A DNA stretch of 64,000 bases. Origin: Pseudosulfitobacter pseudonitzschiae. GTDB lineage: Bacteria; Pseudomonadota; Alphaproteobacteria; Rhodobacterales; Rhodobacteraceae. A model generated the notes under the pieces. It was given only the letters and a program-made list of their open reading frames with translations, was not told where the DNA came from and ran no database searches. The translations under genes were made by a program, and so were the position numbers. Positions 15,574 to 40,098 of the stretch are shown here, piece by piece (the first letter of the stretch is position 1; every line of letters begins with the position of its first letter). The stretch covers positions 1 through 64,000 of the forward strand of contig NZ_FQVP01000011.1 in the NCBI RefSeq assembly GCF_900129395.1. Direction: 5' to 3'.

Positions 15574-15587
15574 TGAAGGATACGGCC

Positions 15588-16538: not shown

Positions 16539-16551
16539 AGGAGCCAACACC

Positions 16552-17715: not shown

Positions 17716-17777
17716 TCCCCTTTGTGCAGGCGGCACGCGGTCGCCTGCACTGTCCCAAACTGACCGGAGCCACCCCC

Positions 17778-20447: not shown

Positions 20448-21467
20448 TCAGCCCTCTTTGTAATACGACGCGTAGCCGTTCAGCGCCGGTGCGCCGCCCA
20501 GGTGGGCGTAGAGCACTTTGGATCCTTCGGGGAAGAAGCCCTTGCGCGTCAGGTCGATCATGCCCTGCATGGATTTGCCTTCGTAAACCGGGTCGGTGAT
20601 CATCGCCTCGGTGCGGGCCGCCAGGCGGATCGCTTCGTTGGTTTCGTCCGACGGCACGCCATATGCGGGATAGGCGTAGTCATTGTTGATCACGATCTCG
20701 TCTTCGCGGACCTTGCGGCCAAGGCCGACCAGCTCGGCGGTGTCATCGACGATGCTGCGCACCTGGGCGCGGGTCTGTTCGGGTGTGCCCGAGGCATCGA
20801 TGCCGATCACGCTTTCGGCGCGGTCCTGCGCGGCAAAGCCCACGATCATCCCCGCCTGAGTCGAGCCGGTGACGACGCAAACGACGATATAGTCGAACTT
20901 GAAGCCCAGTTCCTTCTCTTGCTCGGCAACCTCTTCGGCAAAGCCGATATAGCCAAGTGCGCCGTATTTGTGCACCGAGGCACCGGCGGGAATGGCATAG
21001 GGCTTGCCGCCCTTGTCCTCGACCGATTTGATCGCGTCTTCCCAGCTTTTGCGGATGCCGATGTCAAAGCCTTCATCGACCAGACGCGAATCCGCGCCCA
21101 TCAGGCGGGTCATCATGATGTTGCCGACGCGGTCATAGACGGCATCGTGGTGCGGCACCCATTTTTCCTGGATCACAACGCAATCCATGCCGATCTTTGC
21201 GGCGGTGGCGGCGACCATACGGGTGTGGTTCGACTGGACCCCGCCGATGGACACCAGCGTGTCGGCACCGGAGGCGATGGCGTCGGGGACGATATATTCC
21301 AGCTTGCGCAGCTTGTTGCCGCCCATGGCCAGACCCGAGTTGCAGTCTTCGCGTTTGGCGTAGATTTCGACCTTGCCGCCCAGGGCTTCGCTCAGGCGGG
21401 GCAGGTGTTCGATGGCGGTGCGCCCGAATGTCAGCGGGTAGCGTTCGAATTTATCAAGCAGGGACAT
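20448..21467 (-). CDS. acdS: 1-Aminocyclopropane-1-carboxylate (ACC) deaminase
   Basis: AcdS opens the ring of the plant ethylene precursor ACC to give 2-oxobutyrate and ammonia. The 339-residue protein starts FERYPLTFG like characterised enzymes. The PLP lysine is Lys52 in [10 protein letters not shown]. Tyr295 and Glu296 (DPVYEGKS) and Leu323 (AHLGG) match the residues that separate true ACC deaminases from D-cysteine desulfhydrases (Tyr294, Glu295 and Leu322 in the Pseudomonas enzyme). It is divergent from an Lrp-family regulator, the standard acdR-acdS layout. The frame is open far upstream, but homology fixes the start at 21467. Confidence 0.95.
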
Positions 21468-21551
21468 GGTTTTCCTTCCGGTTTGGCTTTGGTGCATGTT
21501 AGGGGAAGAAGGATGAAATGTGCTTTCTAAGTTGGGGGCATGTTTTACATA

Positions 21552-21582
21552 TTTCTGATGAGAAACCGAAAATACTATTCGG
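21552..21582. promoter_or_regulatory. Candidate AcdR/Lrp binding region
   Basis: Two adjacent dyads lie in the 138-bp acdS-acdR intergenic region: TTTCT-gatg-AGAAA (21552-21565) and CCGAAAATACTATTCGG (21566-21582). Lrp-type regulators bind such A+T-centred palindromes, usually several in phase. Confidence 0.5.
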
Positions 21583-21605
21583 TGCGATAGATAGTCAGGT
21601 AAATT

Positions 21606-22082
21606 ATGGAAGAATCTTCCACAGAAGGCATCGACAGAATCGACCGCAGGATTCTGCGGCTGTTGCAGCAGGACGGGCGGTTGACCAATGCCGAGATCGC
21701 GCAGCGGGTGAACATCAGCCCGGCCACCTGTCACCGCCGGATACGACGCCTGTTCGCGGACCAGCATGTGCTGGACGTGCGCGGGCGGATCAATCCGGTG
21801 TCGGTGGGCCTGGGGTCGCTGGTGATGGTGGGCGTGGTGCTGGACCGGTCCACGCCCGACAGCTTTGCCGCCTTCGAGGACGCGGTGATTGCCATGCCCG
21901 AGGTGCTGGATTGCAACCTGGTGGCGGGGGATTTCGATTACCTGCTGAAAATCCGCGTGCGGGATATGGCGGATTTCAACGCGCTGCACAGCAAGATGCT
22001 GATCGCCCTGCCCGGCGTGCGGCAGATCCGCAGCTTTTTCGTGATGAAAGAGGTCAAGGACAACGCGCCACTGCCGTTTTAG
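21606..22082 (+). CDS. acdR: Lrp/AsnC-family regulator of ACC deaminase
   Basis: This 158-residue Lrp/AsnC protein has an N-terminal helix-turn-helix (about residues 10-60; [21 protein letters not shown]) and a C-terminal RAM effector domain. It is divergent from acdS, as in most acdS-bearing proteobacteria where AcdR activates acdS when ACC is present. Its 3' end overlaps the convergent FAD oxidoreductase gene by 4 bp. Confidence 0.9.
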
Positions 22083-23299
22083 GGGGCCAGCGCCCGCGTC
22101 AGCGCATCGTCCCGGCCATCCACAATGTCGGCCAGCAGCGCGCCGGTGGTCGGCCCAAGGGTCAGGCCCTGATGCCCGTGGCCAAAGTTGAACCACAGTT
22201 TGTCGTGGCGCGGCGCACGGCCCACCATGGGCAACATGCGCGGCAGGCAGGGGCGCACGCCTTGCCACTGGCTGTCAGGCACGGGGCCGTTCAACCCGAC
22301 CAATGCGCCCGCCGCGGCTGCTCCGTGGGTCAGTTGCGCCAGATTTTGCGGGGCTGTCGTGCGGGCCAGATGCGCACCCGTGGTGATGCGCAGGCCGCGC
22401 GCCATGGTCGACATGACCACGCCGTGATCGGCCAGCAGATAGGGGCGGGCAAGTTTCCCCTGCATATCGTAGTGCCCGTGATAGCCGCGTTTCATCACCA
22501 TCGGCACACGGTAGCCCAGGTGTTTCAACAGCGCAGGCGACCACGGTCCCAGCGCCACCACCAGATGTTCCGCGCTCAGATGGCCGCCATCGCGGTCCAC
22601 GCGCCAGCCGGTGACGGTCTCGGTGATCTGGTGCACGGCACTTTGCAGGATCGTGCCGCCGCGTGCCTCGAACAGTTTGGCATAGGCGCGGACCAGCGCG
22701 CCGGGGTCGGATGTGCTCCAGCTTTCGTCCCAGACGATGGCACCCGCCGGGCTGCGGGTCAGCGCCGGTTCTTCAGTGCGCAGGTCGGACCCGGCCACGC
22801 AGCGCAGCGCCAACCCGTGGGTTTCGGCAAAGTCGGTGGCGGTCTGCGCACGCGCGTCGAAATCCTGCGCGGTCTCGTAAATCTCGCCCAGTCCGGTGCG
22901 GCGGATCAGGGCGTCGGCGCCTGCGTCGGCCACCAGCGTGCCGTGGTCGGCGGTCGCGCGGGCGATCAGTGCGGCGTAATGCGGGATCACTTGGGCATAG
23001 CGGGCGGGGGCCGAGTGGCGGAAATAGTCCAGCAAGGCGCGTGCCGACCCCGGCAGAACCGCGGGGTCCAGCCGAAAGTCGTTGCTGCGCCCCAGCCCGT
23101 AACGCAACAGCGTCGCCAGATCGCGCGGCATGGCATAGGGCGCGCGGGCCTCGGCCTGAATGACGCCCGCGTTGCCGTGGCTGGTTTCCTCGCCCGGTCC
23201 ACGCTGGTCGATCACGCGCACCGCATGGCCTTGCGCCTGCAAGGCCAGTGCGGCGCTGATCCCGACCATGCCGGCACCCAGAACAAGGAAATCCGCCAT
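22079..23299 (-). CDS. FAD-dependent D-amino-acid dehydrogenase-like oxidoreductase
   Basis: This 406-residue DAO-superfamily flavoprotein resembles DadA. The ADP-binding GAGMVG lies at residues 8-13, with HGNAGVIQ following, and a C-terminal [14 protein letters not shown] completes the FAD fold. DadA enzymes oxidise D-amino acids to imino acids and pass electrons to the membrane. It is the last gene of the ten-gene minus-strand operon, directly after ridA, whose product deaminates such imines. The exact substrate is not readable. Confidence 0.85.
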
Positions 23300-23304
23300 T
23301 CCGG

Positions 23305-23637
23305 TCAGCCTTGTGCGATCACGGTGATTTCGACCTTGGCGTCGATCATCAGCGCGGCGGCAAGGGTTGTGCGCACGGGGTAGGGTTGCGGGAATGCGGC
23401 GGCATAGACCGCGTTAAAGGCGGCAAAATCCGCCGGATCGGTCAGGTAACAGGTGGCCGAGATTACGTGCGACAGGTCCAGCCCTTCGGTGGCCAGCGTC
23501 GCCTTGATGTTGGCGATGCAGTTTTCGGTTTGCGCGGTGATGCCCTCGGGGATCTTGCCGTTGGCGTCAAAGCCCAGCTCGCCGGACAGGTACAGGGTGT
23601 TGTCGATGCGGCGGGTTTTCGAGAGGGGGATGTTCAT
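23305..23637 (-). CDS. RidA-family imine/enamine deaminase
   Basis: This 110-residue RidA (YjgF/YER057c/UK114) protein hydrolyses reactive 2-imino or enamino acids to keto acids. It has the family's LYLSGELGFDANGKI start and the C-terminal VRTTLAAALMIDAKVEI block. The Arg near the end (PVRTT) matches the carboxylate-binding Arg of active RidA. It lies between amidase and DadA-like genes with 5-11 bp gaps, where it would clear imines made by the dehydrogenase and the PLP dehydratase. Confidence 0.92.
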   Translation of the reverse strand: MNIPLSKTRRIDNTLYLSGELGFDANGKIPEGITAQTENCIANIKATLATEGLDLSHVISATCYLTDPADFAAFNAVYAAAFPQPYPVRTTLAAALMIDAKVEITVIAQG

Positions 23638-23648
23638 GGTTAACGCTT

Positions 23649-25139
23649 TCAGTTGAATGTCAGGAATTCGTCCGCCTGCGACAGCGGTGGGGCGGTGCGC
23701 AGGGCGGCAAAGTCGGGGGCAGGCACGGCCAGATCGGTGCCTGCGATGATCGCCTCAAGTTCGGCGGCGACGGCCAGCACACCCAGATCGTCGTGACGCC
23801 GCCCGACGATTTGCAGGCCAAAGGGCATGCCGTTCGCGTCCATCCCGCAGGGGATCGTGATCGACGGATGCCCCGGAATGGTCGAGGCATAGGCCATCGC
23901 CAGCCAGTGATAATAGCTTTTGGTGGGCGTGCCGTCGATTTCGGTCGGGTAGAGTTCGCGCCACGGGCGCGGGCTGATGGTGACGGCGGGCGAGATGATA
24001 AAGTCGTGCAGCTCGAAAAACGCCTGCCAGTCGCGGTGATAGCGCCCTTGGGCAAAGATCGCCTGGGCCACGTCCTCGGCGGAATAGCTGCGGCCTTCGC
24101 GCACGTTGTCAGCGACGTTGGGGCCGACCTGATCGGGGGTTTCGTCGTAAAGTTTTGCGTGGACACCCAAGAACTGCACCCCGCGCAGGACGGAAAAGAT
24201 GCGGTCGGCGTCGGTGCAATCGGGGATGGCTTCGGTGACCTCGCCCAGGAACGGTGCCAGCTTGGGCAGGATCGCGCGGAAGTGGTCGCGGATCAGCGTT
24301 TCGGTGGGGGCAAAGCCGTAGTCCTCGGTGACTGCGATGCGCAGGGATGACAGGTCGCGGCGTGGCAGGTTGGCAAAGCTTGCCGCATCCCACGGCGTTT
24401 GCCCGTCGATCACGGTGGTGAACGGGTCGTTGCGGTCCGGGCGGGCCAGCACCGACAGCATCAACCCTGCATCCGCCACGCTGCGCGCCATCGGACCCGA
24501 GGTGGGCATGGGGATCAACCCTGCCGCGCGGGTGTTGCCCGGCACCACGCCGGGGCTGGGCCGGTAGCCCACGATGCCGCAATAGGCCGCCGGATTGCGC
24601 AGGCTGCCGCCGGTGTCCGATCCGGTGGCCAGCGGGGCATAGTCACAGGCCAGCGCCACCGCCGAGCCGCCCGACGATCCGGCACAGGTGCGCGTCAGGT
24701 CGTAGGGGTTTGCGGTCACCCCGTTGACGCGGTTGCGGGTGTTGCCGCCCGCGCTCCATTCCGGCGTGTTGGTCTTGCCCATCGGCAAACCGCCCGCCGC
24801 GCGCATGGCAGCAACGATGGCGTCGTCGCCGGTGGCGATGTTGTTCGCAAAAGCTTCAGACCCGAAGGTGGTGGGCAGGCCCGTCACATCAATCATGTCC
24901 TTCACCGCAAAGGGCAGGCCGTGCAGCGCCCCCAGGGGCGCGCCCGACATCACGGCGGTTTCGGCCTTTTTCGCGCCCTCCAGCATCCCGTCAAAGTCGC
25001 GCGCGATCAGGGCGTTTACCGCGTGATCCAGCGTTTCGACCTGCGCGATGCACGCCTGCGCCAGCTCGACCGGCGACAATTTTTTGCGCGCGATCAGGCG
25101 GCGGGCGTCGATGGCGCCAAGGCTGGCGGGGTTGGTCAT
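23649..25139 (-). CDS. Amidase-signature hydrolase
   Basis: This 496-residue amidase-signature enzyme has the full Ser-cisSer-Lys triad: the Lys in LPFAVKDMIDV (about residue 80) and the two serines in the GSSGGSA and GSDTGGSLRNP blocks. It cleaves an amide bond. Malonamidase E2 of Bradyrhizobium, which hydrolyses malonamate, belongs to this family, so a malonyl-amide substrate is reasonable beside the malonate genes. The start overlaps the D-serine dehydratase-like gene stop by 4 bp. Substrate unproven. Confidence 0.88.
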   Translation of the reverse strand: MTNPASLGAIDARRLIARKKLSPVELAQACIAQVETLDHAVNALIARDFDGMLEGAKKAETAVMSGAPLGALHGLPFAVKDMIDVTGLPTTFGSEAFANNIATGDDAIVAAMRAAGGLPMGKTNTPEWSAGGNTRNRVNGVTANPYDLTRTCAGSSGGSAVALACDYAPLATGSDTGGSLRNPAAYCGIVGYRPSPGVVPGNTRAAGLIPMPTSGPMARSVADAGLMLSVLARPDRNDPFTTVIDGQTPWDAASFANLPRRDLSSLRIAVTEDYGFAPTETLIRDHFRAILPKLAPFLGEVTEAIPDCTDADRIFSVLRGVQFLGVHAKLYDETPDQVGPNVADNVREGRSYSAEDVAQAIFAQGRYHRDWQAFFELHDFIISPAVTISPRPWRELYPTEIDGTPTKSYYHWLAMAYASTIPGHPSITIPCGMDANGMPFGLQIVGRRHDDLGVLAVAAELEAIIAGTDLAVPAPDFAALRTAPPLSQADEFLTFN

Positions 25140-26446
25140 GGGGTGATCTCCTGTGGCAGGTCAAGGGCGGCGGGCAGGGCTGCGGCGGCGTCCAGAAAGG
25201 CGCGGTGGGCAGCGTCGGGGACGAACAGGCCGCCGGTGGCCCAGACGACGTGCACGATGTTTTCGGGTTGCACGTGGGCCATGTGGGCCGTGCGAAACGC
25301 CTTGCCCGCCGCGCTGTGCATCAGGTGCTGTGGTCCTGCAAAGCCGGCAGTGGCCGAGGGTTCGAATTGCAACCCGTGGGCATGGCCCGCCGCGACCCAG
25401 CGCAGCATGTCCGCATCGCCCACCGTGCAGACCCCCGCCAGGCGGTCGTGCATGCGCGCGCGCACCAGCGGCGACAGGGTGGCAACGGCCATGCCGTCGG
25501 CTTCGGTCCGGTTGCTGAGGCCCAGATCGTGCACGGACGGCGCATCGAAGGCCATCTGGCACAGGGCCGAGGCGGATTGCTGCGGCTCGACGAAAAAGCT
25601 GTGGGCATGGGCTCCGAACATCGCCCGCGCGCCATAGGCGATGCCACCCGGCGCGCCGCCAATGCCGCAGGGCAGGTACAGGCACAGGGGACGGTCGGGG
25701 CCGATGGCAACGCCCATCGCGTCCAGTTGCGCGGCCAGCTCTGCCGCTGCCGCACTGTAGCCGCGAAACAGCAGTTCCGAGGATTCGTCATCGACAAAAT
25801 AGCTGTCGGGATCGTCCGCCGTGGCATCCCGCGCGGCGGCAACGGCGGTGGTGTAATCGGCGGTGTGCAGCACCACCTCGACCCCCAGCTTGCGCAGGCG
25901 GTCGACCTTCCACGGCTTGGCGTCGCTCGACATATGCACGACACAGGCATACCCCAGCGCGCGTGCGGCGATGCCGACGCTGAGACCCAGATTGCCGGTA
26001 GAACCGACCGCGATCGTGCGGGCCGCAAAGAAATCGCGCATATCAGCCAGATCGGTGAGGGGCGCGTTGGGGGCCAGCACCCCTGCCGCGCGGGCCTGGG
26101 TGACGGCGCACATGAACACTTCGAACAGACCGCCGCGCGCCTTGATCGACCCGGCCACCGGCAGGGCATGGTCGCCCTTGATCAGCAGGGTGCCCGCATG
26201 ATCGCCAAATGCCCCTGCGGGGGCTGGGATCAGGTCCGAGGCGATGCGCCCGCCCGACGCCTCCAATTCAGGGAACAGCCGCGCGAGCAGCGGGGCCAGC
26301 ATGGCCCAGTCATCGCAGGCCCGGTCCAGATCGACGCGCGCCACGGGGTCGTTGGCGGGCATATAGGCGGGATTGACCCACAGAGCCGATTGCCCCGCAC
26401 GCACGGTGTCACGCAGGGCGATCATGTCCTGAGGGGCAAGGGGCAC
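25136..26446 (-). CDS. dsdA: D-serine dehydratase-like PLP enzyme
   Basis: This 436-residue fold-type II PLP enzyme is close in length and pattern to DsdA (D-serine ammonia-lyase). The DHALPVAGSIKARGGLFEV segment contains the PLP lysine, STGNLGLSVGIAARALG the substrate loop, and PCGIGGAPGG the phosphate-binding turn. DsdA converts D-serine to pyruvate and ammonia and also acts on D-threonine. The gene is packed between M20 hydrolase and amidase genes in an operon rich in D-amino-acid functions. Confidence 0.87.
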   Translation of the reverse strand: MPLAPQDMIALRDTVRAGQSALWVNPAYMPANDPVARVDLDRACDDWAMLAPLLARLFPELEASGGRIASDLIPAPAGAFGDHAGTLLIKGDHALPVAGSIKARGGLFEVFMCAVTQARAAGVLAPNAPLTDLADMRDFFAARTIAVGSTGNLGLSVGIAARALGYACVVHMSSDAKPWKVDRLRKLGVEVVLHTADYTTAVAAARDATADDPDSYFVDDESSELLFRGYSAAAAELAAQLDAMGVAIGPDRPLCLYLPCGIGGAPGGIAYGARAMFGAHAHSFFVEPQQSASALCQMAFDAPSVHDLGLSNRTEADGMAVATLSPLVRARMHDRLAGVCTVGDADMLRWVAAGHAHGLQFEPSATAGFAGPQHLMHSAAGKAFRTAHMAHVQPENIVHVVWATGGLFVPDAAHRAFLDAAAALPAALDLPQEITP

Positions 26447-26450
26447 CGGA

Positions 26451-27839
26451 TCAATCCTTTGGCAGGCCCTGTTCGGCCAAATCGGCGAACAGCCCGGTCA
26501 TCGCCACCAGCGCCTGACGCGACAGGGATTTCAGGATATGTTCGTTGGGCGCGTGCTGCGAACAGCCTGCATAGGAATGCGGCACCCAGATCGTCGGCAG
26601 GTTCAGCACCTCGGCAAAGCAGTCGTTGGGCAGAGAGCCGCCAAGGTTTGGCAGGATGTCGGGTGCCACGCCCACGCTTTTTTCAATCGACGCGGTGGCA
26701 AAGCGGACCATCGGGTGGTCGGGGTCCAGCCGTGTGGCGGGAAAGCTGTTGCGCTCATGTTCGACGATCTTGACCTTGCCGAACCCTTCGCGGTCCAGAT
26801 GGCGGCGCAGGGCGGGCAGGATGTCGTCAACCTCGGTCCCGACCACGAACCGCAACTGGCAGGTGGCGCGGGCTGATCCGGCGATGGCATTCAGCGGGGC
26901 GGCGGGGACGCCTGCGGTCATCGCCAGAATGGCAAAGCTGTTCCAGCCGAACACACGTTCGGCGGGGGTCAGGTCAACCTCGCCCCAATCGGCGTCAAGG
27001 TCGATGCCGGTGTCGTGTGCGGGCAGGGCGGCCAGCACCTCGCGGATGCGGGGGGTCAGGCTGGTGGGGCGCCATTCCGGCACGCGGATCTGGCCGCGCG
27101 CATCGGTGATGCTGGCCAGGGCGTGCGACAGGATCATCGCGGGATCGGCCAGCAGACCGCCGAAGTTGCCCGAGTGGTTGGCGCCGGCGCGCAGGTTGAC
27201 CTCGAGATCAAAGCTGACGCCGCCGCGCGAGCCGGTAAAGATCGTGGGGGCGGCAGGGCGCAGGCGCGGGCCGTCGGACGCGATGAAAACATCCGCGCTG
27301 AGCAGGTCGGCATTGGCGGTGCAAAATTCCTTGAGACCCGGTGATCCGGCCTCTTCGCCCATTTCGATGATGACCTTGGCGTTAAAGCCCAGATGTCCCT
27401 GCGCCTTCAGCACCGCCTGCATCGCGCGCAGGTTGATCAGGTGCTGGACCTTGTTGTCGGCCGCGCCGCGTCCATAGAGGCGGTCGCCTTCCTCGATCAG
27501 CTCGAACGGCGTCAGCCCTTCGCGCCACTGGCCCTCTTGTGCGCGCACCACGTCGCCGTGGCCATAGGTCAGGACCGTGGGCAGGCTTGCATCCTCGATC
27601 CGTTCAGCGGTCAGGATCGGCGGGCCGTCGGGTGTGGGATTGTCGTGGAACTGGCAGACAAAGCCCATGGATTCCAGCATCGGGGCCATGTCGTCGTGCA
27701 GATAGGCGTGCAGGTGCGGCTTGCCGCGGGGGTCCTGGCTTTCTGTGGGACGGGACACAAGCGTGGCCAGATCGCGTTGGAACTCACCATCGTCGAAATA
27801 GGTTTCGATGTTGGCGCGGGCAGAGTCTTGCAGGGTCAT
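26451..27839 (-). CDS. M20-family metallohydrolase (acylase/dipeptidase type)
   Basis: This 462-residue M20 peptidase-family enzyme is predicted to use two zinc ions. Visible landmarks are the YGHGDVV histidine-aspartate motif (about 90-96), GRGAADNK with the bridging Asp, GEEAGSPG with the catalytic and metal-binding Glu pair, and a distal NLGGSLPNDCF block. M20 enzymes remove acyl groups or N-terminal residues from N-acyl-amino acids and dipeptides. With a peptide-type importer upstream it may cleave the imported conjugate. Confidence 0.9.
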   Translation of the reverse strand: MTLQDSARANIETYFDDGEFQRDLATLVSRPTESQDPRGKPHLHAYLHDDMAPMLESMGFVCQFHDNPTPDGPPILTAERIEDASLPTVLTYGHGDVVRAQEGQWREGLTPFELIEEGDRLYGRGAADNKVQHLINLRAMQAVLKAQGHLGFNAKVIIEMGEEAGSPGLKEFCTANADLLSADVFIASDGPRLRPAAPTIFTGSRGGVSFDLEVNLRAGANHSGNFGGLLADPAMILSHALASITDARGQIRVPEWRPTSLTPRIREVLAALPAHDTGIDLDADWGEVDLTPAERVFGWNSFAILAMTAGVPAAPLNAIAGSARATCQLRFVVGTEVDDILPALRRHLDREGFGKVKIVEHERNSFPATRLDPDHPMVRFATASIEKSVGVAPDILPNLGGSLPNDCFAEVLNLPTIWVPHSYAGCSQHAPNEHILKSLSRQALVAMTGLFADLAEQGLPKD

Positions 27840-31974: not shown

Positions 31975-31982
31975 ATCGGTCC

Positions 31983-32900: not shown

Positions 32901-32920
32901 CGTGCATCACCTTCCGGGCA

Positions 32921-32963
32921 AAGAAAAAGGCACGGGCCGCGCAACACCTGCCGCGCGGCCCGT
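32921..32963 (-). terminator. Attenuating terminator between binding-protein and permease genes
   Basis: Read on the minus strand, a perfect 11-bp stem (arms 32953-32963 and 32932-32942, ACGGGCCGCGC and complement) encloses a 10-nt loop and is followed by CCTTTTTCTTT. It should stop most transcripts after the binding-protein gene and let a fraction continue into the permeases. Confidence 0.8.
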
Positions 32964-32969
32964 CAAATG

Positions 32970-34484
32970 TTACTTCCAGGAGAAGTCGGCGAAACGGATG
33001 ACTTCGTCGTCCGTGGGGGTGAAGTCCAGTTCCTTGCTCATGACGTAGTTCACGTTGTACGTCCAAAGCGGCACCCAATAGGCCTCTTCGGCAATCTTGG
33101 CATGTGCTTTGGAATACAGCTCTTCCCGCTTGGCACGGTCGGTGATCGAACCGGCCTCGTTCACCCATTCGATGATCTCGGGGTCATTTGCATCGTCCAG
33201 ATCGCCGCCGGTAAAGAATTCACCGGTGATCGCCGACACGTCGGGCAGCGAATAAGAGCCCCATGTCTGGAAGGAAATCGCGACCTCGCCCTTAGTGCGC
33301 TTTTCACGCAGGGCAGAGTACTGCAGGTAGTTGAAGTTGGTCTTGATCCCGACCGCGTTCAAAAAGCCCATCAGCGCCTCGGCATAGGGACGGTCACGGT
33401 AGGCGTAAAAGTCGATCTCGAACCCGTCGGGATAACCGGCTTCGGCCAGCAGCGCCTTGGCTTTCTCGGGATCGTAGTCATAGGTTTTGACGGTCAGGTC
33501 ACAACCGAACTGGATCGGTGCGCAACCTGCGTTCACAACCTCGGACGAGCCTTTGACCAACGCATCGACAATCGCCTGGCGGTCGATGGCGTGATAGATC
33601 GCCTGGCGGACCAGTTTCTTGGTCATCGGGCCATCGGGATCAACGGCACCCTGCGCGTCCATCGTGATATAGCCGATGCGCATTGCCAGCGCGTTGACCA
33701 CGTCGAAACGGTCGTCCATCTGGGCCAGTTTCTCGGCCTGGTCTGCGGGCACGTTCCACAGGAAATCCAGCCCGCCGTTGAACAGCTCGGCCACCTGGGT
33801 GTTCATGTCGGGGATGGTTTTCACTTCGATCTTGCTGATCTTGCCCTTGCCTTTGGGGCTTTCGTGATAGTTTTCGTTCAGGCTCAGTTCGTAAAGCTTG
33901 CCTGCCTCGACCTTGTCGACCTTGTAGGGACCGGTGCCCACGGGGTTCGAGTTCATGCCGGCCGGGCCGACTTCGGCGTAATATTCGTCAGGGTACATGA
34001 CCACAACGCTTGCCAGGTATTCTTCGGCGGGCGGGAACGGTGCGTTCAGATTGATACGGACGGTATAATCGTCAACCTTTTCCGCGCTCTTCATCCAGCT
34101 GACGTTGGTCATGACCTTTACGCCGTTTTCGGGGTTCACAACGTAATTCACGGTGTGGACCACGTCGTCGGCGTTAAAGACTTCGCCGTTGTGAAAGGTC
34201 ACGCCCTCGCGCAGTTTGAATTCGACCGTGACGTCGTCGATCCAGGTCCATTCGGTGGCAAGGTTGCCCTTGATCTCGGCTGTTTGCGGATCACGGTACA
34301 GCAGGGCGTCCCAGACACCGCGCGTGAACAAGATGCCTTCGCGCGCCGAGTTGTAATAGGTGTCGACCGATTCGAGTTCCTTGGTAAAGGCAACGCGCAG
34401 GGTGTCGTCGGCCTTGTCGGCGAATACGGGTGCGGCAGTCACCAGGCTCATGGCGGTGCCGATCATCAGGTTCTTCAGTGTCAT
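32970..34484 (-). CDS. Periplasmic peptide-type substrate-binding protein
   Basis: This 504-residue family-5 extracellular solute-binding protein (DppA/OppA fold) has a Sec signal peptide (TLKNLMIGTAMSLVTAAPVFA) followed by the mature start DKADDTLRVAF. It recruits peptides or similar amphoteric conjugates to the DppBC-type channel. It is the first gene of the ten-gene operon, and a TTGTATACAA operator lies 50 bp before its start. The start at 34484 is the one that makes a proper signal sequence. The ligand is unknown; N-acyl or gamma-glutamyl amino acids are the inference from context. Confidence 0.93.
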   Translation of the reverse strand: MTLKNLMIGTAMSLVTAAPVFADKADDTLRVAFTKELESVDTYYNSAREGILFTRGVWDALLYRDPQTAEIKGNLATEWTWIDDVTVEFKLREGVTFHNGEVFNADDVVHTVNYVVNPENGVKVMTNVSWMKSAEKVDDYTVRINLNAPFPPAEEYLASVVVMYPDEYYAEVGPAGMNSNPVGTGPYKVDKVEAGKLYELSLNENYHESPKGKGKISKIEVKTIPDMNTQVAELFNGGLDFLWNVPADQAEKLAQMDDRFDVVNALAMRIGYITMDAQGAVDPDGPMTKKLVRQAIYHAIDRQAIVDALVKGSSEVVNAGCAPIQFGCDLTVKTYDYDPEKAKALLAEAGYPDGFEIDFYAYRDRPYAEALMGFLNAVGIKTNFNYLQYSALREKRTKGEVAISFQTWGSYSLPDVSAITGEFFTGGDLDDANDPEIIEWVNEAGSITDRAKREELYSKAHAKIAEEAYWVPLWTYNVNYVMSKELDFTPTDDEVIRFADFSWK

Positions 34485-34533
34485 GGTAGTCCTCACTGTT
34501 ATGGTTCGGGGTTCTGTATTTTTATTCTTGTTC

Positions 34534-34543
34534 TTGTATACAA
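34534..34543. promoter_or_regulatory. MatR-type operator before the importer operon
   Basis: The perfect palindrome TTGTATACAA lies 50 bp upstream of the binding-protein start. On the minus strand a TTGACC (34567 down to 34562) lies 18 nt ahead, so the palindrome overlaps where the -10 element would be, fitting repression. The site TCTTGTATACAA resembles the MatR operator reported for the Rhizobium mat operon (TCTTGTATACACGA, recalled from the literature). Confidence 0.75.
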
Positions 34544-34746
34544 CATCGATGAATTGTAATTGGTCAAGAGGAGATTGCAATTCTCTGCCCGAACATCAGG
34601 CAGATTTTGCGCTTTGATGCATATCTGGGCATCGGGTTTGGACATCGGCCAAGGGGCGAACCCGACATCGTCTTTGCAGGGACATCCCCGACCGGCGCAG
34701 GCTTGACGTCACATGCCCACAAACCGGGAGTTTTCGTGACAGGTGG

Positions 34747-35403
34747 CTAGGATGCGGCCGCCTTCAGGCCCGCCATCAGGCTTTGGAAACGCTCGCCTTG
34801 CACCGTCACATGGTCGCGCAGCGCATTGGCCGCGGCGTTGGAATCACCAGAGGTCAGCGCCGCGACAATCGCCTCGTGTTCGGTCAGCGATTGCGCCATC
34901 CGTCCGCGAAAACGCAGTTGCTGCCGGCGGAAGGGGCGCAGCCGTTTTTGCAGTTTCAGGCTTTCCTGCTCCAGAAAGCTGTTGCCCGATTCGCGGTAGA
35001 TCGTGGCATGAAAGCGTTCGTTCTCGGCATAGTACAAATCGCTGTCCTGTGCCTCCGATGCCATCTGACAGCGAATGTTTGCCTCACGCAGTTCTTCCAG
35101 CGCCTCGTTCGACATGCGCCGTGCGGCCAGACGGGCACAGACCGCTTCCAGTTCTGCCATCACTTCGAACATCTCAAGCAGTTCCAGCGGACCGGGCTGG
35201 CGCACGAAGGCGCCCCGTCGCGGGATCAGGGTGACCAGTCCCGAGCTTTCCAGCCGTTGCAACGCCTCGCGCAGCGGGGTGCGGGACACGCCGAACTGTT
35301 CAGCCAGCCGAACCTCGTCCAGCCGGTCTCCGTCGGCAAAGGTGCCGTCAAAGATCATGTGTTCCAGTGAATTGGCGATATTTACGGCGCTGCGTTGTTC
35401 CAT
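34747..35403 (-). CDS. matR: GntR-family (FadR subfamily) regulator, MatR-like
   Basis: This 218-residue GntR regulator has an N-terminal winged helix (VRLAEQFGVSRTPLREALQRLESSGLVTLI) and an all-helical FCD effector domain with a likely metal or carboxylate site (His in ERFHATIYR and TEHEAI). It is divergent from malonyl-CoA decarboxylase and synthetase, the layout of MatR and matAB in Rhizobium, where MatR senses malonate. Matching operators lie before its own gene and before the importer operon. The start MEQRSAVN was chosen. Confidence 0.85.
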   Translation of the reverse strand: MEQRSAVNIANSLEHMIFDGTFADGDRLDEVRLAEQFGVSRTPLREALQRLESSGLVTLIPRRGAFVRQPGPLELLEMFEVMAELEAVCARLAARRMSNEALEELREANIRCQMASEAQDSDLYYAENERFHATIYRESGNSFLEQESLKLQKRLRPFRRQQLRFRGRMAQSLTEHEAIVAALTSGDSNAAANALRDHVTVQGERFQSLMAGLKAAAS

Positions 35404-35450
35404 GCTGAAAAAGCTAGCTTGGCGATTTGAAGCACGCAATAACTATCTTC

Positions 35451-35460
35451 TTGTATACAA
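35451..35460. promoter_or_regulatory. MatR-type operator between matR and matA
   Basis: A second perfect TTGTATACAA, identical to that at 34534-34543, lies 48 bp upstream of the matR start and 5 bp before the -35 element of the matA promoter. It is placed to control both divergent genes. These are the only two exact copies noticed in the window. Confidence 0.78.
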
Positions 35461-35465
35461 AGTGA

Positions 35466-35495
35466 TTGACCTGAAAAACATCATACACCTATGAT
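35466..35495 (+). promoter_or_regulatory. Predicted matAB promoter
   Basis: TTGACC (35466-35471) and TATGAT (35490-35495) are separated by 18 bp, a good sigma-70 match directly downstream of the TTGTATACAA operator. It predicts a leader of about 125 nt before the matA start. Confidence 0.6.
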
Positions 35496-35626
35496 CAACC
35501 CGCCCATGCTTGGCGTTTGTGCCCTCTGACTCGGGACCTGTGCCCGAAAAACAGGCACTTATCCCGCCGCTCCGGCGCGCGGTTCCGGGTAGAGGAGCTG
35601 CGACATCACGCGAAAAGGACTGCAAC

Positions 35627-36880
35627 ATGACGATACTTGCCGACCTGCTTTCCACCATGTTCGAACGCCGGTATCGCACGCCGGGGCAGGGGCGCGCCTC
35701 GGGCCGTCCGGTCGAGGCGTTGATGGCCGACCTGCTGGGCAGCGCGGGCGAAACCTCCGAGCTGGCGCTGGCGCAAGACATACTGGGGCACTACGCCAGC
35801 CTTGACGATGCGGGCAAGCTGGCCTTCCTGCGGCACATGGCGCACGACATGAATATCGACCCGGAAACCGTGCGCTCGGCGCTGGACGCATATGAACAAG
35901 CGCCGTCAAAGCTGAGCTATCGCGCGTTCATGACCGCCGCCGAGCCGCAGCGACAAGAGTTGATTCGCCGTCTGAACCGCGTGCCCGGTGCCACCGGCGC
36001 GCTGGTGCGGATGCGCGCCGACCTGCTGCGGCTGGCGGGCGACGATCCCGAACTGGCCGCGCTGGACCTGGATTTCCGGCATCTCTTTGCCTCGTGGTTC
36101 AACCGGGGTTTCCTGGTGCTGCGCCCGATCAACTGGGAAAGCCCCGCGCATATCCTTGAGAAAATCATCGCCTACGAGGCCGTGCACGCCATTCACAGCT
36201 GGGACGACCTGCGCCGCCGCCTGCAACCGCAGGACCGCCGCTGCTTTGCCTTTTTCCACCCGGCAATGCCGGACGAGCCGCTGATTTTTGTCGAGGTTGC
36301 GCTGACCAAGGGCATCCCCGGCTCGATCCAGACATTGCTGGCCGAGGACCGCGCCGCCATCAATCCCGAGACATGCGACACCGCCGTGTTCTATTCGATC
36401 TCGAATTGCCAGGCCGGGCTGGCCAGCATTTCCTTTGGCAATTCGCTGATCAAACAGGTGGCGGCGGACCTGTCGGGCGAGTTGAAGGGGCTGAAATCCT
36501 TTGTCACCCTGTCGCCGATCCCGCTGCTGACGAAATGGGCCAAGGGCGAAGGCATCGAACTGCCGCAAGAGCCGGACGCGCGCCGCGCGCTGGCCGCGCA
36601 TTACCTGCTGAACGCCAAGGGACGGGGCGATGCGCCCTTTGATCCGGTGGCGCGGTTCCATCTGGGCAACGGTGCACTGGTGCACGCGGTCCATGCCGAT
36701 GCCGATGCCTCGGACAACGGTCAGGCACAATCGGGCGGTGTGATGGTGAATTATCTTTATGATCTCGCGCAAGTCGCGGTAAATCACGAAAACTTTGCGA
36801 CCAAACGTAAAATCGTTGCCAGTTCCGAGGTCACCTCGCTGGCAAAAACAGGCGCCAACGCGATGACTGCGGAAAGGTAA
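35627..36880 (+). CDS. matA: Malonyl-CoA decarboxylase
   Basis: This 417-residue malonyl-CoA decarboxylase (MLYCD family) converts malonyl-CoA to acetyl-CoA and CO2. The SISNCQAGLASISFGNSLIKQV segment and the FVTLSPIPLL block belong to the catalytic GNAT-like domain; the helical N-terminal domain covers roughly residues 1-130. ATG 35627 is preferred over an upstream in-frame ATG at 35510, which lies in the leader. matB begins 3 bp after it, so the two steps of malonate use are co-translated. Confidence 0.94.
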   Translation: MTILADLLSTMFERRYRTPGQGRASGRPVEALMADLLGSAGETSELALAQDILGHYASLDDAGKLAFLRHMAHDMNIDPETVRSALDAYEQAPSKLSYRAFMTAAEPQRQELIRRLNRVPGATGALVRMRADLLRLAGDDPELAALDLDFRHLFASWFNRGFLVLRPINWESPAHILEKIIAYEAVHAIHSWDDLRRRLQPQDRRCFAFFHPAMPDEPLIFVEVALTKGIPGSIQTLLAEDRAAINPETCDTAVFYSISNCQAGLASISFGNSLIKQVAADLSGELKGLKSFVTLSPIPLLTKWAKGEGIELPQEPDARRALAAHYLLNAKGRGDAPFDPVARFHLGNGALVHAVHADADASDNGQAQSGGVMVNYLYDLAQVAVNHENFATKRKIVASSEVTSLAKTGANAMTAER

Positions 36881-36883
36881 GAC

Positions 36884-38401
36884 ATGGCCAACCCTCTTTA
36901 CGACACCCTGTTCGGAGCCCATGCGGGGCGGGATGCACCATTCTTGCACCTGAGCGATGGCAGCACGGTGACCTATGCCGGTTTCCTGGCACAGGCGGCG
37001 CAGATCGCGCATGTGCTGACGGGGTTGGGGGTGCAGCCGGGCGACCGCGTCGCGGTGCAGGTGCACAAATCGCCGCAAGCGCTGGCGCTGTGCGCCGCCT
37101 GCGCGCAGGCCGGTCTGGTGTTCCTGCCGCTGAACACGGCCTATACCACGGACGAGCTGACCTATTTCATTGAAAACAGCGGTGCGGCGCTGGTGGTCTG
37201 CGACGCGGCCAAGACCGGATCGCTGGCGCCGGTGGCCGAAGGGTTGGGGGCCAGGGTGGAAACCCTGAACGCCGACGGCACCGGATCGCTGACCGACAAG
37301 GCGGCGCAGCAATCCGAGCAGTTTGACACGGTCGCCCGCGACGCGGACGACTTGGCGGCGTTTCTGTACACTTCGGGCACCACGGGACGGTCCAAGGGCG
37401 CGATGCTGACGCAGGCGAACCTGTTGTCGAACGCACAGACGCTGGTGAAAGAGTGGCAGTTCACGGCGGACGACGTATTGCTGCACGCGCTGCCGATTTT
37501 CCACACGCACGGGCTGTTCGTCGCCACCAATGTGACACTGGTCGCGGGCGGCAGCATGATCTTTATGCCCGGTTTCGATCTGGAGCAGATCCTGGCCCAG
37601 ATGCCCCGCGCCACGACGATGATGGGCGTGCCCACGTTCTACACCCGTCTGCTGGACGACCCGCGTTTCACCCGCGAGGCCGCAGCACACATGCGGCTGT
37701 TCATCTCGGGATCGGCCCCGCTGCTGGCAGAAACACATGTGCAGTTCGAAGAGCGCACCGGCCAGCGCATTCTGGAACGCTATGGCATGACCGAAACGAA
37801 CATGAACACGTCAAACCCCTATGACGGCGAACGCCGCGCGGGCACCGTGGGCTTTCCGCTGCCGGGGGTCGAACTGAAGATCACCGACCCCGACACCGGC
37901 GCGACCCTGCCGCAGGGCGAGGTCGGCGTGATCGAAGTGCGCGGGCCGAACGTGTTCAAAGGCTATTGGCAGATGCCCGAGAAAACCGCCGCCGAACTGC
38001 GCGACGACGGGTTTTTCATCACCGGCGACCTGGGGCAGATCGACGCCGACGGCTATGTCAGCATCGTGGGCCGCGGCAAGGATCTGATCATTTCGGGCGG
38101 CTACAATATCTATCCCAAAGAGGTCGAGCTGGTGCTGGACGAACAGCCCGGCGTGCTGGAAAGCGCGGTGATCGGCGTGCCGCACCCTGACTTTGGCGAA
38201 ACCGTGGTGGGCGTGCTGGTGCCGCAAAAGGGGCAGAGCCCCGACACCGACGCGATCATGGAGACCATCAAGGGGCCGCTGGCACGCTTCAAACACCCGC
38301 GCCGGTTGGTGGTGATCGACAGCCTGCCGCGCAACACGATGGGCAAGGTGCAAAAGAACGTCCTGCGCGACGCCTACAAGGATATGTTCGCCCCGACCTG
38401 A
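36884..38401 (+). CDS. matB: Malonyl-CoA synthetase
   Basis: MatB ligates malonate to CoA using ATP. The 505-residue ANL-superfamily protein has the P-loop-like TSGTTGRSKGAML motif (about 162-174), RYGMTETNMN, the GFFITGDLG hinge, and a C-terminal catalytic Lys in RNTMGKVQK. Directly downstream of malonyl-CoA decarboxylase, it makes a complete route from malonate to acetyl-CoA. No MatC-type malonate carrier is present, which suggests malonate arises inside the cell. Confidence 0.95.
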   Translation: MANPLYDTLFGAHAGRDAPFLHLSDGSTVTYAGFLAQAAQIAHVLTGLGVQPGDRVAVQVHKSPQALALCAACAQAGLVFLPLNTAYTTDELTYFIENSGAALVVCDAAKTGSLAPVAEGLGARVETLNADGTGSLTDKAAQQSEQFDTVARDADDLAAFLYTSGTTGRSKGAMLTQANLLSNAQTLVKEWQFTADDVLLHALPIFHTHGLFVATNVTLVAGGSMIFMPGFDLEQILAQMPRATTMMGVPTFYTRLLDDPRFTREAAAHMRLFISGSAPLLAETHVQFEERTGQRILERYGMTETNMNTSNPYDGERRAGTVGFPLPGVELKITDPDTGATLPQGEVGVIEVRGPNVFKGYWQMPEKTAAELRDDGFFITGDLGQIDADGYVSIVGRGKDLIISGGYNIYPKEVELVLDEQPGVLESAVIGVPHPDFGETVVGVLVPQKGQSPDTDAIMETIKGPLARFKHPRRLVVIDSLPRNTMGKVQKNVLRDAYKDMFAPT

Positions 38402-38483
38402 TGCAGCGGCAGATCTGTGTCGATCTGCGCGCCGAACTGGCGTAGCAATGGCGCAGCCGTGTTTGCAGCAAGGGACAGCCACC

Positions 38484-39416
38484 ATGACCACAGCCCAACC
38501 AACACCCAAGATTGCCATTCTGGGCGCGGGGCTGATCGGGGCCGCCTGGGCCGCGCTGTTCCAGCATCATGGCGCAGATGTGCGGGTGTGGGACCCGCAT
38601 CCCGATGCGCTGGCCGCCACGCCGAAACGCATGACAAAACCGCTGGCGCAACTGGCCGAAGCGGCCCCTGACGCGGGTCCGCTGGGCAGCGTGACCCTGT
38701 GCGAGACAGTGGCCGAGGCTGTAACCGGTGCCGATCTGGTGCAGGAAAACGCGCCCGAGAACATCCCCGTGAAACACGACCTTTATGCGCAGGTCGAACC
38801 GCTTTTGGCCGATCACGCGGTGCTGGCCTCGTCCACATCGGCGCTGACGTGGTCTGAACTCAGCCCCGGCTTGCAAGACCCCGCACGGCTGATCACGGCC
38901 CACCCGTTCAACCCACCGCATCTGGTGCCGCTGGTCGAAATCTACGGCACCGACGCGGACCGTATCGCACGGGCCGAGGCGCTTTATCGCGGCGCGGGTC
39001 GTGTGCCGGTGCGGCTGAACAAGGACGCAACCGGGCATATCGCCAACCGTCTGGCCTCGGCCCTGTGGCGCGAGGCGGTGTTCATGGTGCAGGACGGCAT
39101 CGCCGATGTCGAAGCGATTGACGCCGCATTGGTCAACGGGCCGGGGCTACGCTGGTCTGTGCTGGGCGCGCATATGGCCTATCACTTGGGCGGCGGGGCA
39201 GGCGGGATGCAAGGCTATCTGGCCCATCTCGGTCCCAGCCAGGAACGCCGCTGGGCTGCTTTGGGGTCGCCCACCCTCAGCCCCGAGGTTCAGGCCGAAC
39301 TGGTCGCCGGGGTCACCCGCGAGGCCGCAGGGCGCGACATTGCGGAACTGGAAGACACCCGCGACAAGGCGCTGATTGCCGCCCTGCGCGCGCGCAAGGA
39401 TGCCCCTCATGTCTGA
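38484..39416 (+). CDS. 3-Hydroxyacyl-CoA dehydrogenase-family oxidoreductase (carnitine dehydrogenase / lambda-crystallin type)
   Basis: This 310-residue NAD-dependent dehydrogenase has a Rossmann GAGLIGAAW at about residues 12-20, the catalytic His in TAHPFNPPHLVPLVE, and a C-terminal helical domain with GPGLRWSVLG and GGAGGM. That pattern fits L-carnitine dehydrogenase and L-gulonate dehydrogenase-like proteins rather than fatty-acid beta-oxidation enzymes. It follows matB by 82 bp and overlaps the next gene. Its hydroxy-acid substrate is unknown. Confidence 0.85.
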   Translation: MTTAQPTPKIAILGAGLIGAAWAALFQHHGADVRVWDPHPDALAATPKRMTKPLAQLAEAAPDAGPLGSVTLCETVAEAVTGADLVQENAPENIPVKHDLYAQVEPLLADHAVLASSTSALTWSELSPGLQDPARLITAHPFNPPHLVPLVEIYGTDADRIARAEALYRGAGRVPVRLNKDATGHIANRLASALWREAVFMVQDGIADVEAIDAALVNGPGLRWSVLGAHMAYHLGGGAGGMQGYLAHLGPSQERRWAALGSPTLSPEVQAELVAGVTREAAGRDIAELEDTRDKALIAALRARKDAPHV

Positions 39417-40098
39417 GACCACACCGCCCCGTATCGCGCTGATCCATGCGCTCGAGGAATCCGTGCTGCCGATCCGCGACGCCTTTGTCCGGCTCTGGCC
39501 GCAGGCGCTGCGGGCCGATCTGCTCGACGCGTCGCTGTCCGCCGATCTGGCCGCTGCGGGCGCGTTGGACGATGCGATGACACAGCGGTTTATCACGCTG
39601 GGCCGTTATGCCGCGCGCGGGACCGGCACCGACGACACCCGCGCCGTCCTGTTCACCTGTTCCGCCTTTGGCCCCGCGATCGACGCGGTGAAAGCGGACC
39701 TGTCGATCCCCGTGATGCGTCCCAACGAGGCCGCCTTTGACGCGGCGCTGGACATCGGATCACGCATCGCGCTGGTGGTCACCTTTGGCCCGTCGCTGCC
39801 CGCGCTCAGCTGCGAGCTTGAGCAGATGGCAGCCCGACGGGGGCAAACCGTCGAAATCACGCCGGTTCTGGCCGACGGCGCGCTGGCCGCGCTCAAGGCA
39901 GGCGACGGCGCAGGCCATGACGCGGCGGTGCGCGCAGCATGCAAGGCGCTGGGGCCGCAGGACGCGGTGGTGCTGGGCCAGTTCAGCCTGGCGCGGGCCG
40001 AAAAACAATTGACCCCGATGCTGGACTGCCCCGTCATCACCACCCCCGACAGCGCCGTGCGCGCCCTGCGCCAGATGTTGGAGGCCGGCCAGTCCTGA
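39409..40098 (+). CDS. Aspartate/glutamate racemase-superfamily protein with one cysteine site
   Basis: This 229-residue protein belongs to the Asp/Glu/hydantoin racemase and maleate isomerase / arylmalonate decarboxylase superfamily. The first active-site Cys is present (LFTCSAFGPAI). The usual second Cys, in an LGC segment, is replaced by Gln in VVLGQFSLARA. Two-base racemisation by the classic mechanism is therefore unlikely; isomerase, lyase or decarboxylase chemistry with one Cys is possible. The start overlaps the upstream gene by 8 bp. Confidence 0.75.
   Translation: MSETTPPRIALIHALEESVLPIRDAFVRLWPQALRADLLDASLSADLAAAGALDDAMTQRFITLGRYAARGTGTDDTRAVLFTCSAFGPAIDAVKADLSIPVMRPNEAAFDAALDIGSRIALVVTFGPSLPALSCELEQMAARRGQTVEITPVLADGALAALKAGDGAGHDAAVRAACKALGPQDAVVLGQFSLARAEKQLTPMLDCPVITTPDSAVRALRQMLEAGQS

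Follow-up and report, generated by a model that had tools for sequence, protein, structure and literature searches.

The present analysis concerns a block of catabolic genes (positions 20448 to 40098) within a 64,000-nucleotide stretch of DNA from Pseudosulfitobacter pseudonitzschiae, hereafter the window, in which acdS, encoding 1-aminocyclopropane-1-carboxylate (ACC) deaminase, lies near a peptide-type importer, several putative amide-cleaving enzymes and the malonate genes matA and matB. The center of the block is a run of ten minus-strand genes extending from 34484 to 22079, with a 69-base gap behind the first gene, the remaining neighbors being separated by no more than 11 bases or overlapping slightly. 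The run opens with a PepT-type ATP-binding cassette (ABC) importer composed of a substrate-binding protein (SBP; 32970-34484; SBP_bac_5, PF00496 at 260 bits, with a start that by eye resembles a signal peptide, and annotated as an ABC substrate-binding protein on the plasmid of strain H46), permease B (31983-32900; PF00528 and the H46 annotation), permease C (31063-31974; PF00528/OppC_N) and a fused double ATPase (29426-31063) with two domains matching NCBIfam models of oligopeptide/dipeptide-type ATPases. There follow an N-terminal nucleophile (Ntn) hydrolase of the gamma-glutamyltransferase (GGT) superfamily (27840-29429; PF01019, 309 bits), an M20 metallo-hydrolase (26451-27839), a D-serine-dehydratase-like (DsdA-like) pyridoxal phosphate-dependent lyase (25136-26446), an amidase-signature hydrolase (23649-25139; PF01425), a RidA-family protein (23305-23637; PF01042) and a flavin adenine dinucleotide (FAD)-dependent oxidoreductase of the DAO/DadA type (22079-23299; PF01266, 168.8 bits). 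Beyond the last of these is an Lrp/AsnC regulator in the opposite orientation (21606-22082, plus strand; PF01037, PF13404 and the H46 annotation), which the earlier note had overlooked, and then, divergent from it, acdS (20448-21467, minus strand). Upstream of the SBP gene is a GntR/FCD regulator (34747-35403, minus strand; PF07729, PF00392), from which diverge, on the plus strand, matA (malonyl-CoA decarboxylase, 35627-36880; PF05292 at 300 bits, PF17408), matB (malonyl-CoA synthase, 36884-38401; 845.8 bits on NF005702 (PRK07514), cut-off 558) and genes for a 3-hydroxyacyl-CoA-dehydrogenase-like protein (38484-39416; PF02737) and an Asp/Glu-racemase-family protein (39409-40098; PF01177). The gene classes named in an earlier note on this DNA are present with clear family matches, and gene content and order agree with the H46 plasmid annotation.

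The contig that carries the window is 108,257 bases long and belongs to a 4.95-Mb genome; the window's M20 and AcdS proteins share 99-100% identity with versions found on Pseudosulfitobacter pseudonitzschiae plasmids. Plasmid records with at least 99% identity number 42 for M20 and 42 for AcdS (45 Pseudosulfitobacter records altogether); the majority of the records listed are plasmids of approximately 108 kb, and the strain sources name diatoms. From acdS to the racemase-like gene the block is a 100% match to the plasmid of strain H46, the annotation of which supplied several of the start codons used here (permease C, the GGT-like gene, acdS, matA and the dehydrogenase-like and racemase-like genes). 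We take the window to be, in all probability, a copy of this plasmid of about 108 kb.

The AcdS protein scores 550.5 bits on the ACC deaminase equivalog TIGR01274 (cut-off 392), stays below threshold on the models for D-cysteine desulfhydrase and D-cysteate sulfo-lyase, and, when aligned to the Pseudomonas enzyme (1rqx), keeps Lys51, Ser78, Tyr294, Glu295 and Leu322. These positions separate ACC deaminase from D-cysteine desulfhydrase, which has Ser/Thr. The protein matches true ACC deaminases, as the earlier note had proposed, and not D-cysteine desulfhydrases, and opening of the ACC ring is predicted. Membership of acdS in the ten-gene run was considered and ruled out, the divergent Lrp gene (21606-22082, plus strand) lying between them. 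In Rhizobium leguminosarum 128C53K, lrpL/acdR is upstream of acdS (PMC3557214), and since an Lrp gene in this position is known in that species, acdS in the window looks like a unit of its own. The window thus resembles characterized acdR-acdS units in its divergent Lrp/AsnC regulator and in the residues of the enzyme, and differs from them in the linkage of acdS to an importer-amidohydrolase operon.

To collect relatives of this operon, species genomes were scanned with an M20 alignment, and of the 582 relatives the best 80 were retained for study (G and L numbers below are our labels for genomes and loci). Besides the window, ten of the best 80 are amidase-type loci, belonging to Sulfitobacter DFL-14, EhC04, two Cohaesibacter, a Rhodobiaceae metagenome-assembled genome (MAG), Rhizobium BK602, R. 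sullae, a Rhizobiaceae MAG, Shinella UYSO24 and Solirhodobacter; at 26 the importer, GGT-like and M20 genes form a core that lacks the amidase, and at 37 no importer, GGT-like or amidase relatives were seen in the stretch. The window, these ten and Rhizobium PDO1-076 (L090), the contig of which ends before the amidase, make up 12 amidase-type genomes, 11 of which carry acdS (10/11 without L090; the exception is Solirhodobacter, L108), as compared with 23 of 385 genomes in a class sample that includes the window's own genome. The gene was found in 8 of 50 genomes with an M20 locus of another type (50 of 69 such genomes) and in 37 of 199 genomes of a family sample around BK602; the class and family tallies score some first-look candidates per genome and may be lower bounds. 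Amidase homologues occur in four of the 199 family-sample genomes, BK602 included, and all four have acdS: in G652 it follows the amidase on the same strand, and in G611 and G618, the amidases of which are 55-56% identical to that of BK602, it is on another contig. The amidase reached the set threshold in 3 of the 385 class-sample genomes, the window's included; of the other two, G518 carries acdS at a different place, and G505 does not appear among those with acdS.

At the level of the locus, acdS stands beside orthologous importer and M20 genes in 17 cases, namely those of the window, DFL-14, EhC04, PDO1-076, BK602, R. sullae, the Rhizobiaceae MAG (L096), Shinella, G652, G680, G676, G441, Salipiger abyssi, Paroceanicella, Rhizobium NIBRBAC, R. 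lusitanum and R. etli 8C-3. The M20 gene is present in all 17, though broken in EhC04, and the position of acdS varies. It is downstream with acdR between in the window and S. abyssi, at the other end, beyond matB, in DFL-14 and EhC04, upstream and mostly accompanied by an AceE-like enzyme in Rhizobium loci, downstream in the other direction in L096, Shinella, NIBRBAC and Paroceanicella, about 1 kb before the SBP gene on the same strand in G680, G676 and G441, and the last gene of the run in G652; at L208 a single same-strand run reads SBP-permease-permease-ATPase-ATPase-GGT-M20-amidase-acdS. The acdS association with the operon arose more than once. In a quick acdS tree of 79 rows, built without bootstrap, the linked label (12 rows) needs nine changes, at least four of them forced by starred branches, and the window's acdS is not placed with those of DFL-14 and EhC04 (branch supports 83-94, not starred); the importer proteins of these two are 91-97% identical to the window's.

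Counts were also made around acdS itself. A total of 69 acdS places (39 from the family sample, with L192 standing for BK602, 22 from the class sample without the window's own genome, and 8 from genomes with other M20 types; 5 of the 69 are linked loci) was compared with 40 control regions, two each from 20 of the same genomes at places picked by round numbers. Of the 69 places, 14 (9/39, 5/22 and 0/8, respectively) have a PepT permease within 8 kb, as does none of the controls; for an M20 gene the counts are 6/39, 1/22 and 0/8, again against 0/40; at the eight places in other-M20-type genomes a GGT-type gene is within 8 kb in one. These counts bear on the alternative that the genes of the block are chance neighbors on a plasmid rich in catabolic genes. 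The block is indeed plasmid-borne in 45 Pseudosulfitobacter records, and acdS and the operon are met in many orders, so that the parts evidently recombine; yet the grouping recurs in Rhodobacterales and Rhizobiaceae in different orders, the operator described below is conserved, and the 40 control regions hold neither PepT permease nor M20. Chance is therefore already disfavored and, to our minds, very improbable, and the comparative evidence suggests that the importer-M20-acdS link is more than fortuitous.

Regulation appears to tie the importer to the malonate genes. The identical 13-mer TTCTTGTATACAA is found at 34531-34543, before the SBP gene, and at 35448-35460, before matA, and includes the palindromic operator TTGTATACAA, located at 34534-34543, where it is conserved in relatives, and at 35451-35460 in the regulator-matA gap; the shared operator described in the earlier note is borne out by these copies. 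Allowing at most one mismatch, TTGTATACAA occurs twice in the window, where 0.27 occurrences would be expected (a count of two was likewise reached in 2 of 100 shuffles), and the 13-mer occurs four times in the 4.95-Mb genome, both exact copies being in the block, with three occurrences of a reversed control. Eleven amidase-type loci possess the importer, and in 10 of them TTGTATACAA, with zero or one mismatch, lies between the regulator and SBP genes, the exception being L083, where no relative of the GntR regulator was found. It is likewise present in all six further plasmid operon loci (Salipiger abyssi, Paroceanicella profunda, Rhizobium NIBRBAC000502774, R. lusitanum, Salipiger CCB-MM3 and R. 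etli 8C-3). It also occurs, at the same stringency, at the mat loci of BK602, R. sullae, the Rhodobiaceae MAG, G680, R. lusitanum and R. leguminosarum UPM791.

The regulator adjoining matA is a GntR protein with an FCD domain, of the MatR subfamily. In a regulator tree that was likewise quick, without bootstrap and with long branches, it groups with importer-linked regulators (support 90), mat-linked ones lying nearby and not forming the clade in which it falls; among its near relatives are those linked to mat genes in BK602, R. sullae and G680. On our reading, this MatR-like regulator would belong to the importer and would, in the window and the two Sulfitobacter, also have taken over matAB. 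The block resembles the malonate operons matRABC of Rhizobium leguminosarum bv. trifolii and matPQMAB of Sinorhizobium meliloti (both as cited in PMC5237526), with which it shares matA and matB as well as a TTGTATACAA-type palindrome and its GntR/FCD regulator. It differs from them in two respects. Firstly, its regulator falls among importer-linked relatives and seems to govern the PepT importer-hydrolase operon as well. Secondly, the earlier note's statement that a malonate carrier is missing holds for the MatC family: the block has no carrier gene, and a search for PF07158 found none in the genomes of the window, DFL-14 and EhC04, TRAP-type carriers (tripartite ATP-independent periplasmic transporters) being outside that search. 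The genomes of BK602 and R. sullae have MatC, and the mat clusters of BK602 and G680 keep carriers (MatC; TRAP genes).

The earlier note had named the lack of any tendency of the operon to sit by matAB as an outcome that would refute its reading, and the present data did not refute it. The genes matAB, acdS and the importer-M20 operon are found together in 6 of the 17 cases, those of the window, Sulfitobacter DFL-14 and EhC04, Rhizobium BK602, R. lusitanum 629 and G680. Within 8 kb of acdS, matA is present at 4 of 12 linked loci and at 0 of 64 unlinked acdS places; in the window matA is about 14 kb from acdS, giving 5 of 12 linked loci within 20 kb. Since several rows are close relatives, the p-value of a Fisher test on these 5 of 12 comes out too small. 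Two related arrangements were observed on rhizobial plasmids. On that of Sinorhizobium CCBAU 05631 (L301:5559-14434), a different PepT importer is followed by a malonyl-CoA synthase and, directly after it, M20 in a single run; acdS is absent from the stretch shown. On R. leguminosarum UPM791 pRlvC (L302:1-14380, L307:13761-16294), M20 comes after an importer of the branched-chain type; within 14 kb of it are RidA, a D-amino acid dehydrogenase and a malonyl-CoA synthase, a GntR regulator and a glutathione S-transferase are also grouped there, and an operator-like site precedes the GntR gene.

Two enzymes of the run are the main candidates for cleaving the conjugate in the cytoplasm. The M20 protein scores 682.7 bits on the PRK07079 model (NF005478; cut-off 330), and its metal-ligand positions, the roles of which are taken from the M20 family, are invariant in 83 of 83 aligned homologues (80 of 80 near the end). 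It shares metal-ligand and catalytic-Glu positions and a profile match with carnosinase, cytosolic dipeptidase and DapE, and among its relatives of solved structure are carnosinase, cytosolic dipeptidase and Cys-Gly dipeptidase. The PRK07079 group is separate from the carnosinase and DapE types, and we know of no characterized member. We regard M20 as the lead candidate for the hydrolase of a conjugate such as malonyl-ACC. The amidase has the triad Lys80-Ser155/156-Ser179, conserved as Lys-Ser-Ser in 11 of 11 homologues, and was not seen in G680, G676, G441 or on the short PDO1-076 contig, the stretches of G680 and G676 ending inside M20. It shares the amidase-signature family and this triad with malonamidase E2 and ureidomalonase, and its best-scoring solved relatives are urethanases. 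In malonamidase E2 a malonate-binding Arg lies three residues after the nucleophile. The window's amidase has Asn (Asn182) at this place, as do 11 of 11 homologues, with Arg at +2, and the likeness to malonamidase E2 was set aside accordingly.

These residues enter into the weighing of a further alternative, namely that the substrate is a different malonyl amide (malonamate, ureidomalonate or another N-malonyl compound) and that acdS is an unrelated neighbor. Amidase-signature enzymes acting on small malonyl amides are known, malonamidase E2 and ureidomalonase among them, and the regulator and matAB link would suit such a substrate; set against this are the strength and repeated origin of the acdS association and the Asn182 of the amidase, and we judge the explanation quite improbable.

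The GGT-superfamily protein bears on one half of the earlier note's proposal, which had included gamma-glutamyl conjugates. Its assignment as a gamma-glutamyltransferase stands at the level of the superfamily, the catalytic Thr and the Gly-Gly oxyanion hole being kept in 39 of 39 homologues, and is not supported at that of the enzyme, the score on the GGT equivalog being 251.1 bits (cut-off 357.85) and the pocket being altered. In E. coli GGT, N411, D433, S462/S463 and R114 are gamma-glutamyl-binding residues. The positions of N411, D433 and S463 are Leu, Trp and Asn, respectively, in 39 of 39 homologues, that of S462 is Met in 37 of 39, and that of R114 is Gly in 38 of 39, with an Arg two positions on in 36 of 39 that renders this site ambiguous. 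To our knowledge, the group with these Leu, Trp and Asn substitutions is an acylase group without a characterized member. No signal-peptide-like start was seen by eye in the protein. Its gene was seen in 7 of the 17 acdS-linked loci (the window, DFL-14, EhC04, G652, G680, G676 and S. abyssi) and is missing from 8 of 11 rhizobial ones.

A gamma-glutamyl route would have the GGT-like enzyme release glutamate from gamma-glutamyl-ACC or gamma-glutamyl-D-amino acids, with M20 acting as a dipeptidase, as in glutathione breakdown. The adjacency of the GGT-superfamily gene to M20 in the core cluster, the dipeptidases among the solved relatives of M20, the Arg near the R114 position in 36 of 39 homologues, ambiguous as it is, and the existence of gamma-glutamyl-ACC in plants (PMC4227472) would suit such a route, and the block does recall the GGT/glutathione importer (Gsi) system in having a PepT importer, a GGT-superfamily enzyme and an M20 dipeptidase-like enzyme. 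It departs from that system in the lost gamma-glutamyl pocket residues, in the lack (by eye) of a signal-peptide-like start on the GGT-like protein and in the absence of the GGT gene from many relatives, among them the rhizobial operons L090, L091, L095, L096 and L106, where no GGT gene was found. Because three known binding residues are replaced in all 39 homologues, the gamma-glutamyl reading is not supported; the protein also falls under the equivalog cut-off, and the reading leaves matAB and the MatR-type regulator unexplained, and we consider it distinctly unlikely.

Among the enzymes with a presumptive role in D-amino acid metabolism, the DsdA-like protein scores 436.9 bits on PRK02991 (NF002823; cut-off 246) and 356 bits, just below the cut-off of 368.25, on TIGR02035. 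The oxidoreductase, called DadA type in the earlier note, retains the DAO domain and does not reach the DadA subfamily (136 bits, cut-off 383). The operon of Salipiger CCB-MM3 (L305:4539-25330) has no acdS in the stretch shown and is followed within a few kb by genes for an N-carbamoyl-D-amino-acid hydrolase, a dihydropyrimidinase and a racemase-family protein, which suits a D-amino-acid context. That D-hydantoinase-type neighborhood without a nearby acdS, together with the DsdA-like, DadA-like and RidA proteins and the peptide-type importer, favors the possibility that the block scavenges peptides containing D-amino acids (peptidoglycan or nonribosomal fragments) and that acdS either acts on D-amino acids or arrived through plasmid traffic. 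This possibility is rendered unlikely by the match of AcdS to true ACC deaminases and not to D-cysteine desulfhydrases, by the recurrence of acdS as a partner of the amidase-type locus, and by matAB and the shared MatR-type operator, which it leaves without explanation.

A last alternative arises from M20 proteins outside the family described above. Other M20 groups, some with other PepT importers, adjoin acdS at L209, L222, L226, L227 and L229, and since several acdS-adjacent M20 genes belong to such groups, the theme of import, hydrolysis and AcdS looks convergent and wider than matAB. In G731 (L209:7155-20000), ridA-dadA-acdR-acdS are in the order of the window and are followed by an AceE-like gene, an M20 gene of another group and another PepT importer. 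The substrate could on this account be another ACC conjugate or an ACC peptide (jasmonyl-ACC or ACC dipeptides), the adjacency of matAB reflecting general malonate use in the niche. The MatR-subfamily regulator on the importer and the missing MatC would then lack an explanation, and we give this account little credence.

Taken together, the gene content, operators and conserved linkage observed here lead us to read the block as a catabolic module for N-acyl conjugates of ACC and D-amino acids, most likely N-malonyl conjugates, a reading to which we assign a probability of roughly 0.5. The intact conjugate would be taken up by the PepT-type importer and split by a cytoplasmic amidohydrolase, most likely M20 with the amidase as an alternative or helper, into malonate and the free amino acid. 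MatB would convert malonate to malonyl-CoA and MatA malonyl-CoA to acetyl-CoA; AcdS would convert ACC to 2-oxobutyrate and ammonia; and the DsdA-like and DadA-like enzymes would deaminate D-amino acids, with RidA clearing imine or enamine intermediates, as judged from family chemistry. One MatR-subfamily GntR regulator, binding the two TTGTATACAA copies, would switch the importer and matAB together, and the Lrp regulator may control acdS separately. Substrate, cleavage and effector are the parts of this scheme that we infer. The malonyl and D-amino-acid enzymes fit together since hydrolysis of the conjugate would yield malonate plus either ACC or a D-amino acid, and in plants ACC and D-amino acids are thought to compete for one malonyl transferase (PMC6921899, which also reports malonyl-ACC levels unexplained by the simple model). 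The earlier note's interpretation is thus partly supported: the grouping of importer, M20, acdS and matAB, with the amidase or without it, recurs outside this species in other arrangements; the N-malonyl half fits the regulation, the mat linkage and the D-amino-acid enzymes, and the gamma-glutamyl half is not supported. Somewhat more tentatively, we propose a dedicated bacterial pathway for N-malonyl-ACC and N-malonyl-D-amino acids in which a PepT importer for the intact conjugates, an M20 N-malonyl-amino-acid hydrolase, AcdS, D-amino-acid enzymes and MatAB act under one MatR-type regulator, carried on plasmids of alga-associated roseobacters and in rhizobia.

Several observations weigh against the malonyl reading. 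In 11 of the 17 linked loci no matAB is seen in the stretches available, matB is found anywhere in the genome in only 7 of the 12 amidase-type genomes, and malonyl-CoA decarboxylase turned up in 7 of the 9 linked or related genomes in which it was sought (elsewhere in the genome in G441, G652, G676 and both Cohaesibacter, and not in two others). Sites like TTGTATACAA may be common to other FCD regulators, and the operator alone is therefore no proof of a malonate effector. The two Cohaesibacter and the Rhodobiaceae MAG carry acdS on contigs other than that of the operon, and Solirhodobacter (L108) has M20 and the amidase without acdS, the importer also not being seen. Related genomes inflate the counts, several rows being close relatives, and the 40 controls held matA and matB together in one case and a GGT-type gene in one. 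In EhC04 (L041:10001-12884) the M20 frame is lost near residue 350 and the DsdA, RidA and DadA genes are missing, so that either the assembly or the pathway is broken; in Shinella UYSO24 (L106:4095-12947) several operon genes are split between frames, through decay or assembly error. Malonyl-ACC in diatoms was not shown in the literature surveyed. At none of the 26 core loci, with 20 kb examined at each, was acdS or matB found, which suggests that the core unit has a broader or different role; at 22 of these loci there is a gene from a single regulator cluster, the one tested member of which Pfam assigns to IclR. A reading of the entire importer-GGT-M20 core as an ACC system was accordingly rejected, with acdS at 0/26 core loci and in 8/50 genomes of other types. 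Two loci with a roseobacter-type core operon, L062 (labelled Nocardioides marinus) and L063 (labelled Bacillus subtilis), probably come from mislabelled or contaminated assemblies. Finally, the dehydrogenase-like and racemase-like genes (38484-40098) and the TauE/SafE genes of relatives have no place in the scheme.

In DFL-14 and EhC04 the place after matB is held by acdS, without the dehydrogenase-like and racemase-like genes; DFL-14 has a second matB beside a similar 3-hydroxyacyl-CoA dehydrogenase (L197). A TauE/SafE gene follows M20 at L040:11405-12220, L095:11351-12172, L297:13357-14169, L298:13390-14205, L300:14398-15216 and L305:13383-14195, and lies near acdS in L183 (16360-17097); it is not part of the window's operon, and its presence in several relatives was considered as a possible hint of sulfonates. 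An AceE-like/transketolase thiamine enzyme adjoins acdS in many genomes, including 8 of the 39 family-sample places (examples are L091:1619-4003, L096:9828-12239 and L297:20492-22870), and would suit the role of a 2-oxobutyrate dehydrogenase acting on the AcdS product. Just outside the block, at 14332-18743, is a complete beta-hydroxyaspartate cycle set, bhcABCD, all four genes of which exceed NCBIfam equivalog cut-offs; on the H46 plasmid bhcD matches as two pieces (94% and 70%) near the start of the record.

ACC deaminase bacteria lower plant ethylene. Models of their action have them feeding on ACC from root exudates (PMC4227472), and the same source describes malonyl-ACC as the major ACC conjugate, with no other known conversion, reconversion having been reported twice and the hydrolase being unknown. 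Within the literature surveyed, the association of acdS with such an importer, an M20 gene or matAB is not described, although a supplement on acdS neighborhoods (PMC4048297) may hold prior notice. The grouping observed here suggests a candidate new catabolic route for malonyl-ACC, and perhaps for malonyl-D-amino acids. If this holds true, the bacterial importer and hydrolase would supply a candidate gene for the malonyl-ACC hydrolase and would change the view of how ACC deaminase bacteria reach their substrate, giving them access to an ACC pool thought closed once malonylated, and the trait would extend from roots to bacteria associated with diatoms.

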